A stretch of 60,990 bases of DNA from Lutibacter sp. (GTDB lineage Bacteria > Bacteroidota > Bacteroidia > Flavobacteriales > Flavobacteriaceae): positions 1 to 60,990 of the forward strand of contig NZ_JABDRI010000029.1 of assembly GCF_013041805.1 (NCBI RefSeq), written 5' to 3'. The position numbers and the translations under genes were made by a program. The notes under the pieces were generated by a model. The model did not search any database, was not told the origin of the DNA, and saw only the letters and a list, made by a program, of their open reading frames with translations. Of this stretch, positions 3,652 to 14,820 are shown piece by piece. Within the stretch, counting starts at the first letter, position 1; each line of letters starts with the position of its first letter.

Positions 3652-3852
3652 CTTCGACAAGCTCAGTGTGACGTTCCATTTAATCATTACCTTATTACTG
3701 TCAGTCTGAGCCTGTCGAAGACCCATTTATGTTACAATTATACTTTGACAAGCTCAGTGTGACGTTCCATTTAATCATTACCTAATTACTGTCAGTCTGA
3801 GCCTGTCGAAGACCCTTCTTGTTACAATTACACTTCGACAAGCTCAGTGTGA
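3652..3852. repeat. REP-like inverted repeat array B, right block
   Basis: Arm pairs at 3652-3720 and 3743-3811, then a lone left arm at 3832-3852. Unit, period and orientation are as in the left block. The number of arms on either side of the GIY-YIG gene is the same (three left, two right). After 3853 a short stretch with CTTGACTCAAGACTGCACG leads to the end of the tviB-like gene. Confidence 0.9.
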
Positions 3853-10722: not shown

Positions 10723-13440
10723 CTAATTTTCAGCTAAATTAGGGTTTAACCATTTTTTAGCCTCATCTAAACTCATGTTTTTTCTAACAGCAAAATCCTT
10801 CACTTGATCTTCTGTTATTTTCCCAACTCCGAAATATTTAGCTTGTTCATTCCCAAAATAATAACCAGACACTGATGCTGCAGGCCACATTGCTAAACTA
10901 TCAGTTAATTCAACTCCAATGGTTTCTTTTACACTTAATAATTCCCAAAGTGTTAATTTTTCTGTATGGTCTGGACACGCCGGATAACCTGGTGCTGGTC
11001 TAATTCCTTTGTAATTTTCTTTAATTAAATCTGCATTTGTTAAATCTTCGGAAACTGCATAGCCCCAATGCTCTTTTCGAACCTTTTCATGCAAATATTC
11101 AGCAAAAGCTTCTGCCAATCTATCAGCTAAAGCTTTAATCATAATGGAATTATAATCATCGTGGTCTTTTTCAAACTCAGCGGCTAATTCAGCTGTTCCA
11201 AATCCTGTTGACACACAAAATGCGCCAATGTAATCTTCAATAGTTGATTCCTTTGGCGCAATAAAATCAGCTAAAGCTATGGAAGGAATCCCTTCTTTCT
11301 TTTTTAATTGTTGACGCAAGGTTACAAATTTAACATTCACTTCTTGTCTTGTTGAATCTGTGTACACTTCAATATCGTCCTCAGCAGCATTTGCAGGAAA
11401 AATTCCAAAAACAGCTTTTGCCGTTAACAAATTTTCATCTAGAATTTTGGCTAATAACAATTTAGCATCTGAAAACAAATTTGTTGCTTCTTTTCCTACT
11501 ACTTCATCTGTTAATATCTCAGGATACCTGCCGTGCAATTCCCACGTTCTAAAAAATGGACTCCAATCAATATAATCTACCAATTTACTAAGATCAAAAT
11601 CTTCAATTACCTGTGTTCCAAGATAATTTGGTGCCTCGATTTTTGTTGCATTCCAATCTATCTTAAATTTATTATTTCTTGCTAGTTCCAGCGTCAAATA
11701 TTCTTTGCGCTTAGAGCGGTTTAAAAAGCCATCACGTACCTTTACATAATCGGCTTTTATATCGAAAACATATTGCTTGTTTGTTTTAGCATTCAACAAA
11801 TCACCAACCACCGTTACTGCTCTAGAAGCATCGTGAACGTGAACCACAGCGTTTTTATACTGCGGATCAATTTTTACTGCTGTATGTGCTTTTGAAGTAG
11901 TAGCCCCACCAATTAATAGCGGTACTTCAAAATTTTGGCGCTCCATTTCTTTTGCTAAATATACCATTTCATCTAATGATGGCGTAATTAAACCACTTAA
12001 TCCAATAGCGCTTACTTGTTCGGCTTTGGCGGTTTCAATAATTTTTTCTGGTGGAACCATCACACCTAAATCAATAATATCATAGTTATTACATGCTAAA
12101 ACAACACCTACAATATTTTTACCAATATCATGAACATCACCTTTTACAGTTGCTAATAAAATTTTACCATTCGACTGACTTACTCCATTTTTTTCGGCCT
12201 CAATATACGGTAATAAATACGCGACTGCTTTTTTCATCACTCGCGCAGATTTTACCACTTGTGGTAAAAACATTTTTCCAGAACCAAATAAATCTCCAAC
12301 AACATTCATCCCTTTCATAAGATTCACTTCAATAACTTCAATCGGCTGTGAAGCTTGTAATCTAGCTTCTTCTACATCCTCTAAAATATATTCATCTAGA
12401 CCTTTCACTAATGCATGTGTGATACGTTCTTGTAAGGATTTTTCGCGCCAAGACAAATCTACTTTATGTTCTTTAGCAGAAGTCACCACGGTTTCAGCAA
12501 ATGTTAACAAACGTTCTGTAGCATCTTCTCGCCGATCTAAAATTACATCTTCAACGTGCTCTAATAAATCTTTAGGAATTTCATCATATACCTCTAACAT
12601 TGTAGGATTTACAATTCCAATATTCATTCCCGCTTTGATCGCATGATATAAAAATACCGAGTGCATGGCCTCTCGAACCGCATTATTACCACGGAAAGAA
12701 AAGGAAACATTACTAACCCCTCCACTTACGCTTACATTTGGTAAGTTAGTGCGAACCCAACGCGTGGCTTCAATAAAATCAATGGCATTTCTTTTATGCT
12801 CATCCATTCCGGTGGCCACAGGAAAAATATTTAAATCGAAAATAATATCCTCTGATGGAAAGTGAACATCATCTACCAATATTTTATAAGAACGCTTTGC
12901 TATTTCTATTCTTCGCTCATAATTATCAGCTTGCCCAACTTCATCAAAAGCCATAATAATTACAGCAGCACCGTACATTTTTATTTTTTTAGCTTGCTCA
13001 ATAAACTGTGCTTCTCCCTCTTTTAATGAAATAGAATTTACTACACATTTTCCCTGAGCTACCTGCAAACCAGCTTCAATAATTTCCCATTTCGAACTGT
13101 CGATCATGATAGGTACACGGGCAATATCCGGCTCGGCAGCGATAAGATTCATAAAACGAACCATGGATTCTTTTCCATCAATTAACCCATCGTCCATATT
13201 AATATCGATTATTTGGGCTCCACCTTCTACTTGATGGCGTGCAATCGCAAGGGCTTCATCAAATTTTTCTTCTTTTATTAATCGTAAAAACTTTTTAGAA
13301 CCAGCAACATTTGTACGTTCACCAACATTGATAAAATTACTTTCTGGAGTAATAATTAGTGGCTCAAGTCCGGAAAGTTTTAAAAACTTTCTTTGGTTGT
13401 TAGTTGTTGGCTGTTGGTTATTGGTTGTTTTATGTAACAT
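10723..13440 (-). CDS. metH: Cobalamin-dependent methionine synthase, C-terminal part (folate, B12 and reactivation domains)
   Basis: The second of two genes that together equal full MetH. In order: pterin-binding barrel (from about residue 30, [11 protein letters not shown]), B12 cap, B12-binding fold with DVHDIGKN (near 440; the His ligates cobalt), and a SAM-dependent reactivation domain ([12 protein letters not shown]). The homocysteine domain is on 13822-14820. The first 16 residues ([16 protein letters not shown]) are Asn/Gln/Thr-rich and are coded by the CAAC-type repeat that flanks the inserted S23 gene. The family normally starts near [11 protein letters not shown], and there is no Met between those points. 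The ATG overlaps the end of the S23 gene by 11 bases. Confidence 0.95.
13395..13430. repeat. CAAC-type inverted repeat, right copy
   Basis: On the minus strand it reads as stacked CAACAACTAACAACC-like units. CCAACAACTAACAACCA (17 bases) recurs exactly, in inverted orientation, at 13814-13830. The two copies flank the S23 gene. This copy encodes the N-terminus of the C-terminal MetH part. Confidence 0.85.
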
Positions 13441-13792
13441 TTTTTCTATAATAATTTATAAATCCGTTTAATAACTTTTTACAGCTAGTAACTTGAACTA
13501 ATAATAATTTTAATTCTTCAATCGACAAAAACTCTAAATCATTTGCTAGGTACAATTGGGTTTCTAATTCAAATAAAGAACCTCTTGATATATGTAAAAA
13601 ATGAATTGTTTCATTTGAACTATGTCTTCCGCAACCTTCAGCAATATTTGAAGGGACAGAAACTGAACATCTTTTAATTTGACTAGTAAGCCCATACACT
13701 TCTTCAGAAGGAAACTTTTTACAAATGGCATATACCATTTTTACGAGTTTTCTAGTTTCTAACCAAACATCTAATTCTATATATGAAATCAT
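13430..13792 (-). CDS. Four-helix-bundle protein (S23 / 23S rRNA intervening-sequence family)
   Basis: 120-residue all-helical protein of the S23 family. Its hallmarks are [17 protein letters not shown] at the start and [19 protein letters not shown] (about residues 38-56), then [19 protein letters not shown]. These proteins are named for genes inside 23S rRNA insertions and are related to the Avd accessory of diversity-generating elements, but no reverse transcriptase is nearby and the host locus is metH. It lies between the two metH genes on the same strand, starting 29 bases after the first part and overlapping the second by 11 bases. Inverted 17-base repeats flank it. I infer a small mobile or formerly mobile unit; its function is unknown. 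Confidence 0.88.
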
Positions 13793-13805
13793 TTTATTTA
13801 TTTTA

Positions 13806-13840
13806 AACTAAAACCCAACAACTAACAACCATCAACCAAT
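13806..13840. repeat. CAAC-type inverted repeat, left copy
   Basis: It contains CCAACAACTAACAACCA on the plus strand, the exact inverse of the copy at 13395-13430. Read on the minus strand it supplies the last codons (LVDGC) and the stop of the N-terminal metH gene. Confidence 0.85.
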
Positions 13841-14820
13841 CTTGGCTTATAATCCTTTACCAAATCTGCAATTGCTTTAATATGTGCTGGTGTTGTACCG
13901 CAACAACCTCCAATTATATTGACTAGCCTTTTGTCTAAGTAGGTTTTAATTTGACTCGCCATTTGATCTGGAGTTTCATCATATTCACCAAAGGCATTTG
14001 GCAACCCTGCGTTAGGATGTGCTGAAATTCTAATTTTAGATTTTTGGGCTAACACCTCTAAATGAGGCGTTAACTGATTGGCACCCAATGCGCAATTAAA
14101 CCCAACTGATAACATTGGAATATGCGAAACTGAAATTAAAAAAGCTTCAGCAGTTTGCCCCGATAAAGTTCTACCACTTGCATCGGTAATAGTACCACTT
14201 ACCATAATTGGTATATCAATATTTCGTTCTTCTTTAATTTCCTCAATGGCGAAAAGGGCCGCTTTTGCATTTAAGGTATCAAATACGGTTTCAACCAATA
14301 ACAAATCTGCTCCACCATCTAACAAGGCTTCTGCTTGTTGTTTGTACGCCACTCTTAAATCGTTAAAAGTAACTGCTCTATAGCCAGGATCATTCACATC
14401 AGGTGACATACTTGCTGTTCTGTTAGTTGGTCCTATTGAACCAGCTACAAAACGAGGTTTATTCGGATTTTTAGCCGTAAATTCTTGAGCTGCTTCCTTT
14501 GCAATTTTTGCCGACTGATAATTGATTTCATACACAAAATCTTCCATTTCATAATCGGCCATGGCAATGGTTGTTCCTGAAAAAGTGTTTGTTTCAATAA
14601 TATCAGCACCGGCTTCTAAATATTTTCTATGAATTTCTTTAATAGCTTCTGGCTGGGTTAACGAAAGCATATCATTATTCCCTTTTACCGAAAGATGAAA
14701 ATCTTTAAATTGTTCTCCTCTATAATCTTCTTCTGAAAAATTATATTGCTGAATCATAGTTCCCATGGCACCATCCAACACTAAAATTCGTTTTTTTATT
14801 TCTTCTTCTATTGTACTCAT
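13822..14820 (-). CDS. metH: Cobalamin-dependent methionine synthase, N-terminal part (homocysteine methyltransferase domain)
   Basis: 332-residue homocysteine S-methyltransferase barrel that activates homocysteine with zinc. The zinc ligands are all present: Cys243 in GFNCALG and Cys306-Cys307 in [18 protein letters not shown] and ETNTFSGT are typical. It must act with the folate/B12 part encoded at 10723-13440. Splitting into two genes is usual in flavobacteria as far as I recall, but here an S23 gene lies between them. The last five residues, LVDGC, and the stop are coded by the flanking repeat, so the native C-terminus near DYKPR appears to have been altered. The leader has a SAM-I aptamer and a structured element. 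Confidence 0.95.

Follow-up and report, generated by a model that had tools for sequence, protein, structure and literature searches.

Results

Anatomy of the unit between metH1 and metH2

In a 60,990-nt stretch of a Lutibacter sp. genome (assembly GCF_013041805.1, contig NZ_JABDRI010000029.1, positions 1 to 60,990; the window), methionine synthase is encoded on the minus strand by two genes, separated by a small S23 gene lying between inverted arrays of heptanucleotides (heptads). The upstream gene, metH1 (13822–14820), encodes the homocysteine S-methyltransferase part, assigned from its open reading frame (ORF) and a match to PF02574. The downstream gene, metH2 (10723–13440), encodes the pterin-binding, B12-binding and activation domains. 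The S23 gene between them (13430–13792, minus strand) specifies a four-helix-bundle protein of 120 amino acids. On its upstream side in the coding sense, the left array (13805–13837, minus strand) reads GGTTGAT, GGTTGTT, AGTTGTT, GGGTTTT and AGTTT; the right array (13394–13429, minus strand) is its downstream mirror image. The whole unit of gene and arrays measures ~440 bp. S23 is its sole ORF of ≥60 amino acids between the arrays, so that a transposase gene is absent.

An initial annotation, made from the sequence alone, had placed exact 17-base inverted repeats on either side of the S23 gene, and these were confirmed in position and content. The left repeat, CCAACAACTAACAACCA, occupies 13815–13831, and the right repeat, its exact reverse complement, 13394–13410, both on the minus strand. 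They form the cores of the longer arrays, and the 26-nt arms around them show 88% complementarity. When the two 60-nt flanks, both of low complexity, were compared, the longest exact inverted match was 17; dinucleotide shuffling (2000 replicates) gave a mean of 7.2 and never more than 16. Exact 16-mer matches in the same genome were limited to the two arms; with ≤2 mismatches, 6 matches were found against 4 for a reversed control. No Rfam family matched positions 12800–14400 at gathering score.

The ends of the unit contribute codons to both neighbours. As had been claimed for the left repeat, it contains the stop codon of metH1 (13822–13824, TAG on the coding strand), and the last codons (LVDGC) and stop lie within the left array. 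The matching claim for the right repeat, that it encodes the start region of metH2, held for residues ~5–16, whose 12 codons are in the right array. It failed for the start codon itself (13438–13440), an ATG in the S23 tail just outside the array, between S23 and the array. The S23 stop and metH2 start overlap over 11 nt (ATGTTACATAA, 13430–13440, minus strand). Two further S23 genes occur in the same genome (L002, contig C85; L003, contig C59); one has an internal stop and the other is without clear inverted arrays.

The S23 protein matched the S23 profile PF05635 with an E-value of 5.8e-37 (126.6 bits, curated cut-off 33.8) and TIGR02436, the other S23 family tested, with 122.9 bits (cut-off 24). 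A weak match to DivGenRetAVD was also seen (E 6.1e-5, 23.3 bits, cut-off 80). An AlphaFold2 model showed four helices with a predicted local distance difference test score of 95.4. Its best structural match was XCC0516 (2gsc_B, template modelling (TM) score 0.91), with BT_0352 (2rld) also retrieved. Weaker matches included Avd of a diversity-generating retroelement (DGR; 4dwl, TM 0.80, E 3.6e-3) and Avd of solved reverse transcriptase ribonucleoproteins (8ub7 and others). XCC0516 is reportedly an assembly of five bundles. Avd acts in an RNA-bound complex, and by analogy a nucleic-acid-binding role for S23 is plausible. The likeness of PF05635 to Avd is noted in a DGR paper (PMC10053308). No catalytic residue pattern was identified in the S23 protein, and none was tested for. 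A 22-row S23 alignment contained 29 invariant columns, with intact and conserved ORFs.

Heptad arrays around other S23 genes

We collected 192 S23 loci, of which 191 had a recognisable S23 ORF and 174 were distinct and intact with both flanks. For S23 places in the genus genomes, a first 32 loci and 80 more were examined; two named Lutibacter records proved to be duplicates (L024 of L167 and L025 of L149, identical over 3315 nt). Inverted matches between the 120-nt flanks, counted at a score ≥12, occurred at 107 of the 174 S23 loci, compared to 3/128 for other genes from the same loci. Read in the direct sense, the flanks matched at 27/174 loci, and mismatched flank pairs did so in 73 of 600 cases. 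At a lag of seven nucleotides, identity reached 0.46 in the left 60 nt (control 0.33) and 0.475 in the right (control 0.30), and the signal recurred at lags of 14 and 21. Fivemer cosine similarity of the flanks was too noisy, and period-7 profiles were used instead. Both arms were periodic at 103/174 loci. The similarity of a locus's own arms was 0.83 inverted and 0.17 direct. The inverted match ended a median of 19 nt before the ATG and began a median of 17 nt past the stop (83 loci, score ≥14).

The CAAC-type repeats that the initial annotation anticipated around other S23 genes were present at related S23 genes, as GTTGNNR arrays, and other lineages were flanked by other heptads. These included AGACNGA, AGAAAAG, AATTGAC, AAAGCTG and GCTNTTN, often with different heptads within one genome (G029 has 13 S23 matches). 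S23 matches were also found in 28 plasmid records, of which 14 were examined and 13 scored, mostly cyanobacterial (L239 is from Riemerella, L236 and L237 have identical flanks, and L230, a copy of L229, was omitted). An inverted match score ≥12 was reached by 7 of these 13 loci, the Riemerella locus being one of the 13; plasmid locus L233 carried long arrays matching in direct rather than inverted orientation. The phage collection gave no S23 match, and phage carriage was rejected.

Because the met operon has been inherited in common by many close relatives, a first Mantel result (rho 0.724) was confounded; we therefore compared only pairs of loci whose flanking proteins within 1500 nt showed no homology. 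The 103 loci with both arms periodic were used, pairs from the same nucleotide cluster or without a BLAST alignment of ≥70 columns were excluded, and heptad profiles were called near-identical at a similarity >0.8. For pairs combining a met-operon locus with one outside that operon, profiles matched in 197/273 pairs at ≥60% protein identity, in 62/223 at 50–60% and in 1/1954 below 50%. With neither locus in the met operon, the figures were 18/24, 4/41 and 6/1044, respectively, pairs again sharing loci. The drop with falling protein identity is nevertheless steep, and S23 protein and heptad stay associated at different addresses. Loci L119 and L124 hold related S23 genes in different operons, with 78% nucleotide identity over 454 nt that ends in the arrays.

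Placement and turnover at gene junctions

Neighbours could be called at 171/174 loci by simple ORF calling. S23 was co-directional with both neighbours in all 171, corresponding to 94/94 sequence clusters, compared to 36/52 window genes and 63/82 other genes of the same loci. Neighbours outside the met operon included anthranilate synthase I with glutamine amidotransferase, enoyl-CoA hydratase with 3-hydroxyacyl-CoA dehydrogenase, glycosyltransferase-4 (mraY-like) with a MurD-like gene, an outer membrane efflux protein with an HlyD-like gene, HgmA-like with glyoxalase-fold (HPPD-like) genes, and thiolase with acyl-CoA dehydrogenase. On cyanobacterial plasmids, S23 genes were seen between cas6 and cas4, between cas10 and a cmr3-type gene, and, in antisense, between two ribonucleotide reductase genes.

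The junction between the HgmA-like and HPPD-like genes was surveyed at 30 HPPD loci, three of which were dropped for lack of the partner gene on the examined stretch. Fourteen of the 27 remaining junctions were 10–27 nt long, including that of the window's own genome; one of them (L355, 21 nt) had the look of an array remnant. S23 was present at 9/27 junctions and belonged to at least three lineages: four intact or near-intact genes 69–96% identical, two 84% identical and one alone, the three groups being mutually 22–36% identical (L373, interrupted by Ns, and L369, with no intact ORF, lay outside these comparisons). Of the other four junctions, one was a decayed stretch of 207 nt and three were gaps measuring 41, 58 and 61 nt; by eye, the 58-nt gap (L374) held two arms and no gene. 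Barring exchange of whole operons, the simplest count requires three or more insertions.

Between thiolase and acyl-CoA dehydrogenase, intact S23 was found at 1/30 junctions (G009), and a close relative with a 94% identical thiolase (G011) had a 21-nt junction. Eleven of the 30, including G011, measured 14–30 nt. Three more were decayed stretches of 247–260 nt, one with clear arrays, and the other 15 spanned 56–132 nt; several of these 15 contained another kind of repeated element. This element, of 108–132 nt with complementary C- and G-rich ends, occurs at L385, L388, L390, L398, L399, L401, L404 and L406. From coordinates, another S23 gene lies ~60–125 nt upstream of the same thiolase in G009, G012, G017, G019, G030 and G036 (loci L016, L017, L019, L077, L091 and L115), so that G009 has S23 on both sides.

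Reverse transcriptase as an obligatory partner was rejected. RVT_1 matches were found in 15/38 genomes and none in G003, G014 and G020, each of which has 8–10 S23 matches.

History of the metH junction

The initial annotation had envisaged empty sites in relatives. These were found at metH: 24 of 28 analysable Lutibacter junctions were without S23, which was present in G000, G014, G029 and G030 (metH1 was identified in 36/38 genomes and 30 loci were examined, L064 and L065 being dropped after the anchor pattern failed). One-sided relics were recognised by eye as a left array in G020 and G025 and a right array in G005 and G010. The metH genes overlap in G008, and the junction can therefore be closed. 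The metH1 tree was poorly resolved, with the four S23-bearing genomes scattered, and monophyly of their S23 genes was not rejected (p-AU 0.7). Independent gains at metH within Lutibacter are accordingly unsupported; loss from an ancestral unit is an equally good reading. At the metH junctions of L040, L041, L050 and L057, other repeat pairs of the AGCCCCCTAACCCCC..GGGGG kind extend both frames.

Among the 80 nearest S23 loci in the named genome collection, 64 had metH or metF genes in the examined stretch and 16 did not. In ~20 named flavobacterial genera, the met operon holds S23 genes of the clade found in the window, accompanied by GTTG arrays. The metH arrangement therefore dates far back; it has been lost or reduced to relics in places and has moved between junctions of the operon, and a recent local insertion at metH is not supported. 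Of an old, fixed arrangement without empty sites, which the initial annotation had named as evidence against its reading, the age was borne out and the lack of empty sites was not. Most commonly S23 lies between metH1 and metH2. It lies between metH2 and metF in other Flavobacterium, Flagellimonas and Allomuricauda. One Chryseobacterium has it ahead of metH1, two Croceivirga have S23 flanking metH2 on either side, and in G319 it follows a fused metH and precedes metF. The S23 tree, built on few columns and with many weak forks, gave at least four junction changes.

The codon supply seen in the window recurs across these genomes, which supports and generalises the earlier idea of a mobile unit whose ends provide stop and start signals. 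By keyword count, array-coded metH2 N-termini of the TTNNQQP kind occurred at 31/49 loci with S23 between metH1 and metH2. The first metH2 ATG was inside the S23 frame at 29/49, mostly 1, 4 or 11 nt before the frame end; the metH2 start was taken as the first in-frame ATG and may differ from the true one. Array-coded metH1 ends numbered 3 by keyword count, and the ends KLTVVS* and VVVSC* looked array-derived by eye. Ends of metH1 were not readable by script at L001, L024, L025, L070, L187 and L220, and L183 was misread owing to Ns.

Other features of the met operon were also recorded. In Algibacter, Tamlana, Aequorivita, Flavivirga and Snuella (L151–L154, L168, L170, L173, L181 and L200), 327–1277 nt separate metH1 from S23, and the coupling of S23 to metH2 stays tight. 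Among the matches listed in a phylum-wide metH1 search, MetH is a single ORF, mostly of 1200–1400 amino acids, in many Bacteroidota and is split, with a first part of ~330–420 amino acids, in the window's family and some others. Locus L204, from a record titled as a Klebsiella pneumoniae metagenome-assembled genome, contains a Flavobacterium-like met operon with S23 and is probably a mislabelled or mis-binned assembly.

Discussion

A compact unit with proposed S23-binding ends

We propose that S23 and its inverted heptad arrays constitute a compact unit that belongs to a large family, that units of this family seldom move, and that their ends are bound by their own S23 protein. We assign this reading a probability of roughly 0.6. 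The arrays would serve both as unit ends and as putative binding sites for the unit's own Avd-like four-helix protein; by marking the ends, this protein would enable host enzymes to copy or join them. Every lineage of S23 would possess its own heptad and carry it to new addresses. Lineage-specific recognition of the heptad by S23 is the best-supported part of the proposal. In the Bacteroidota loci examined, where the units lie in sense between co-directional genes as in operons, they would probably depend on read-through transcription. Through these ends, the gene upstream would acquire its stop, and the gene downstream a coupled start together with a presumably harmless N-terminus rich in Asn, Gln and Thr. 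Units would eventually decay or collapse into array scars. Observed are the anatomy, the protein–heptad matching at unrelated sites, the sense placement, junctions in empty, occupied and relic form, different units at a single junction and the supply of codons; S23 binding, the chemistry of movement and reliance on read-through are inferences.

Several observations weigh against this proposal. The window's own genome (99% complete) has no RVT_1 match and the unit has no transposase. Recent transposition was not detected: near-identical S23 copies at different sites were not found, and the best S23 pair without homologous flanks was 83% identical over 335 nt. No target duplication was evident by eye at the G009/G011 and G005/G006 junctions, the flanks being too diverged for certainty. 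Arrays are common to S23 loci and not universal, since 48/174 have one periodic arm only and 23/174 have neither; these loci include much of one conserved clade (L098, L107, L112, L120 and L122). The pairs in the matching test share loci and are hence not independent. Sense placement is not universal either, because three cyanobacterial plasmid units are antisense to both neighbours. GTTG arrays stood without S23 in the examined stretch at 18/20 array loci, a looser scan of these 20 loci found no inverted partner arrays, and a reversed-pattern control was uninformative as the heptad pattern is nearly identical backwards. Finally, different genera share the conserved placement in the met operon, and a host role would fit this as well.

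Such a role would make S23 an operon regulator serving the host, binding the arrays of its own operon as DNA or mRNA, tuning neighbours such as metH2 and being kept for regulation rather than movement. Its long conservation at several junctions of the met operon in ~20 named genera, its sense placement and tight coupling to metH2, and the protein-heptad matching all speak for this reading. However, the same junctions are often empty in close relatives, unrelated S23 lineages occupy one junction, and the neighbours are very diverse (anthranilate synthase, glycosyltransferase-4/MurD-like, HgmA-like/HPPD-like, thiolase/acyl-CoA dehydrogenase, efflux and cas genes). We consider regulation unlikely. 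Matching across unrelated sites, together with the several unrelated units at one junction and the intact ORFs with their 29 invariant columns, also speaks against a decayed, inert relic of an ancestral insertion, inherited vertically with array slippage and now without mobility or function. The orthologous neighbours of many S23 loci in related genomes, the p-AU of 0.7 for Lutibacter metH S23 monophyly and the one-sided relics seen by eye in four genomes suit a relic, which we nonetheless judge the least probable of the explanations.

The arms might instead act in RNA. They would pair in the polycistronic mRNA and RNase III would cut the stem, so that the unit is tolerated through its removal from the message, as in an intervening sequence (IVS) of rRNA. 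The predicted fold of the unit RNA (-100.9 kcal/mol against a shuffle mean of -81.6; z -3.73), with a ~17-bp inter-arm stem, is in keeping with this, as is the 28-bp terminal stem of the Coxiella 23S rRNA IVS, which is cut by RNase III in vitro (PMC4990558). Arm mismatches point the other way. At 129 aligned loci, G-U wobble on the sense strand was not in excess but rather the reverse, with left/right mismatches of G/A 66 and A/G 102 and of T/C 43 and C/T 40, giving 109 sense-wobble against 142 mirror cases. In addition, the loop contains the start codon of metH2, so that stem cutting would separate this codon from its gene. These two points favour the arrays as DNA or RNA binding sites over a processing stem, and we regard RNA processing as improbable.

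Relation to known S23 genes and heptad repeats

The nearest known relatives are the 23S rRNA IVSs of Coxiella and Leptospira, which likewise comprise an S23 ORF within terminal inverted repeats, with similar size and sporadic distribution. In Coxiella, the 428-nt IVS is bounded by a terminal inverted repeat of 28 bp and contains an S23 ORF, whose ATG is directly preceded by heptamers (GACAGAT): two or three in tandem and a further, degenerate copy (PMC4990558). The window's unit, unlike these, lies in a protein-coding operon outside the rRNA gene. Its type of end supplies stop and start codons, its heptads are matched to S23 lineage, and RNase III excision is not expected. The initial annotation's contrast with known homes of S23 genes was right as to place; in anatomy the 23S rRNA IVS is alike, sharing the S23 ORF and terminal inverted repeats and, in Coxiella, the heptamers ahead of the ATG.

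Heptad arrays have been reported separately from S23. TAACTGA heptamers are reported from Beggiatoaceae, cyanobacteria and five Bacteroidetes (MacGregor 2015, PMC4679880); like the arrays studied here, they and the cyanobacterial heptanucleotide repeats are tandem, mostly intergenic and patchy. In its accessible portion, that paper describes them without an S23 gene and ties no protein to the repeats, and suggests an unidentified repeat-binding protein as a possible mobile element. The cyanobacterial plasmid S23 genes in our set carry TAGGGTG, TAGGGAG, GGTGACA and other arrays. The cyanobacterial heptanucleotide repeats are known as STRR. In Xanthomonas, GGGAATC heptamers form close convergent site pairs, 70 in Xcc and 75 in Xac, of a function not known in that report (PMC4692102). 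These are heptad arrays as here, and Xcc also encodes the S23 protein XCC0516 (2gsc); a word search of PMC4692102 found no S23, helix bundle or XCC0516.

With Avd of DGRs, S23 shares the fold (4dwl, TM 0.80) and a weak profile match; a DGR itself is not indicated, no RVT_1 match being present in the window's own genome. In REP/RAYT systems, a small protein is matched to its own short repeats, copies of which also occur elsewhere, as proposed here for S23. S23 is not Y1 transposase-like, and its gene lies between inverted heptad arrays rather than hairpins.

More tentatively, and at odds somewhat short of even, S23 proteins in general might be oligomers that bind nucleic acids sequence-specifically, reading heptads in a seven-base code peculiar to each lineage. 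S23 plus arrays would then be a previously unnamed class of minimal mobile unit residing at operon junctions and repaying its neighbours with stop and start codons, with the IVSs and the cyanobacterial and Xanthomonas heptads as its members, offspring or debris. Genes of the S23 family are common and their role is unsettled, and no maker is known for the heptanucleotide arrays of cyanobacteria and other bacteria. Finding one S23 lineage paired with one heptad at unrelated sites joins the two puzzles and turns both into a question for binding assays. If correct, the proposed unit would add a class of mobile units without a recombinase gene and would explain how insertion into tight operons is tolerated, its ends stopping one gene and starting the next. 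No paper linking S23 genes with heptad arrays was found among titles and abstract starts of the open-access literature (subscription literature not covered), and the accessible parts of PMC4990558, PMC4692102, PMC4679880 and PMC10053308 describe no S23-array system.

Other heptad arrays

Further heptad arrays were noted at individual loci. Locus L303 (G009, contig C14) carries GTTGNTG arrays of ~12 and ~20 units at 1026–1114 and 3691–3835, with no S23 in the 4.9-kb stretch. An AroA-like protein, as we take this gene to be from its sequence, has a variable loop (NQQLATSNQQP and alike) that is coded by GTTG-type heptads in several Lutibacter genomes (L304 839–871 in G014; also L324, L329 and L336) and elsewhere consists of unrelated sequence of nearly the same length. 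Array insertion within this gene was rejected as a clean case, because the loop varies at near-constant length among 30 genomes. At L318 (760–838, G010), an AGAAAAG-type array adjoins one of the CAACCAA type immediately ahead of a start codon; the examined stretch lacks S23, and the pair may be a double scar.

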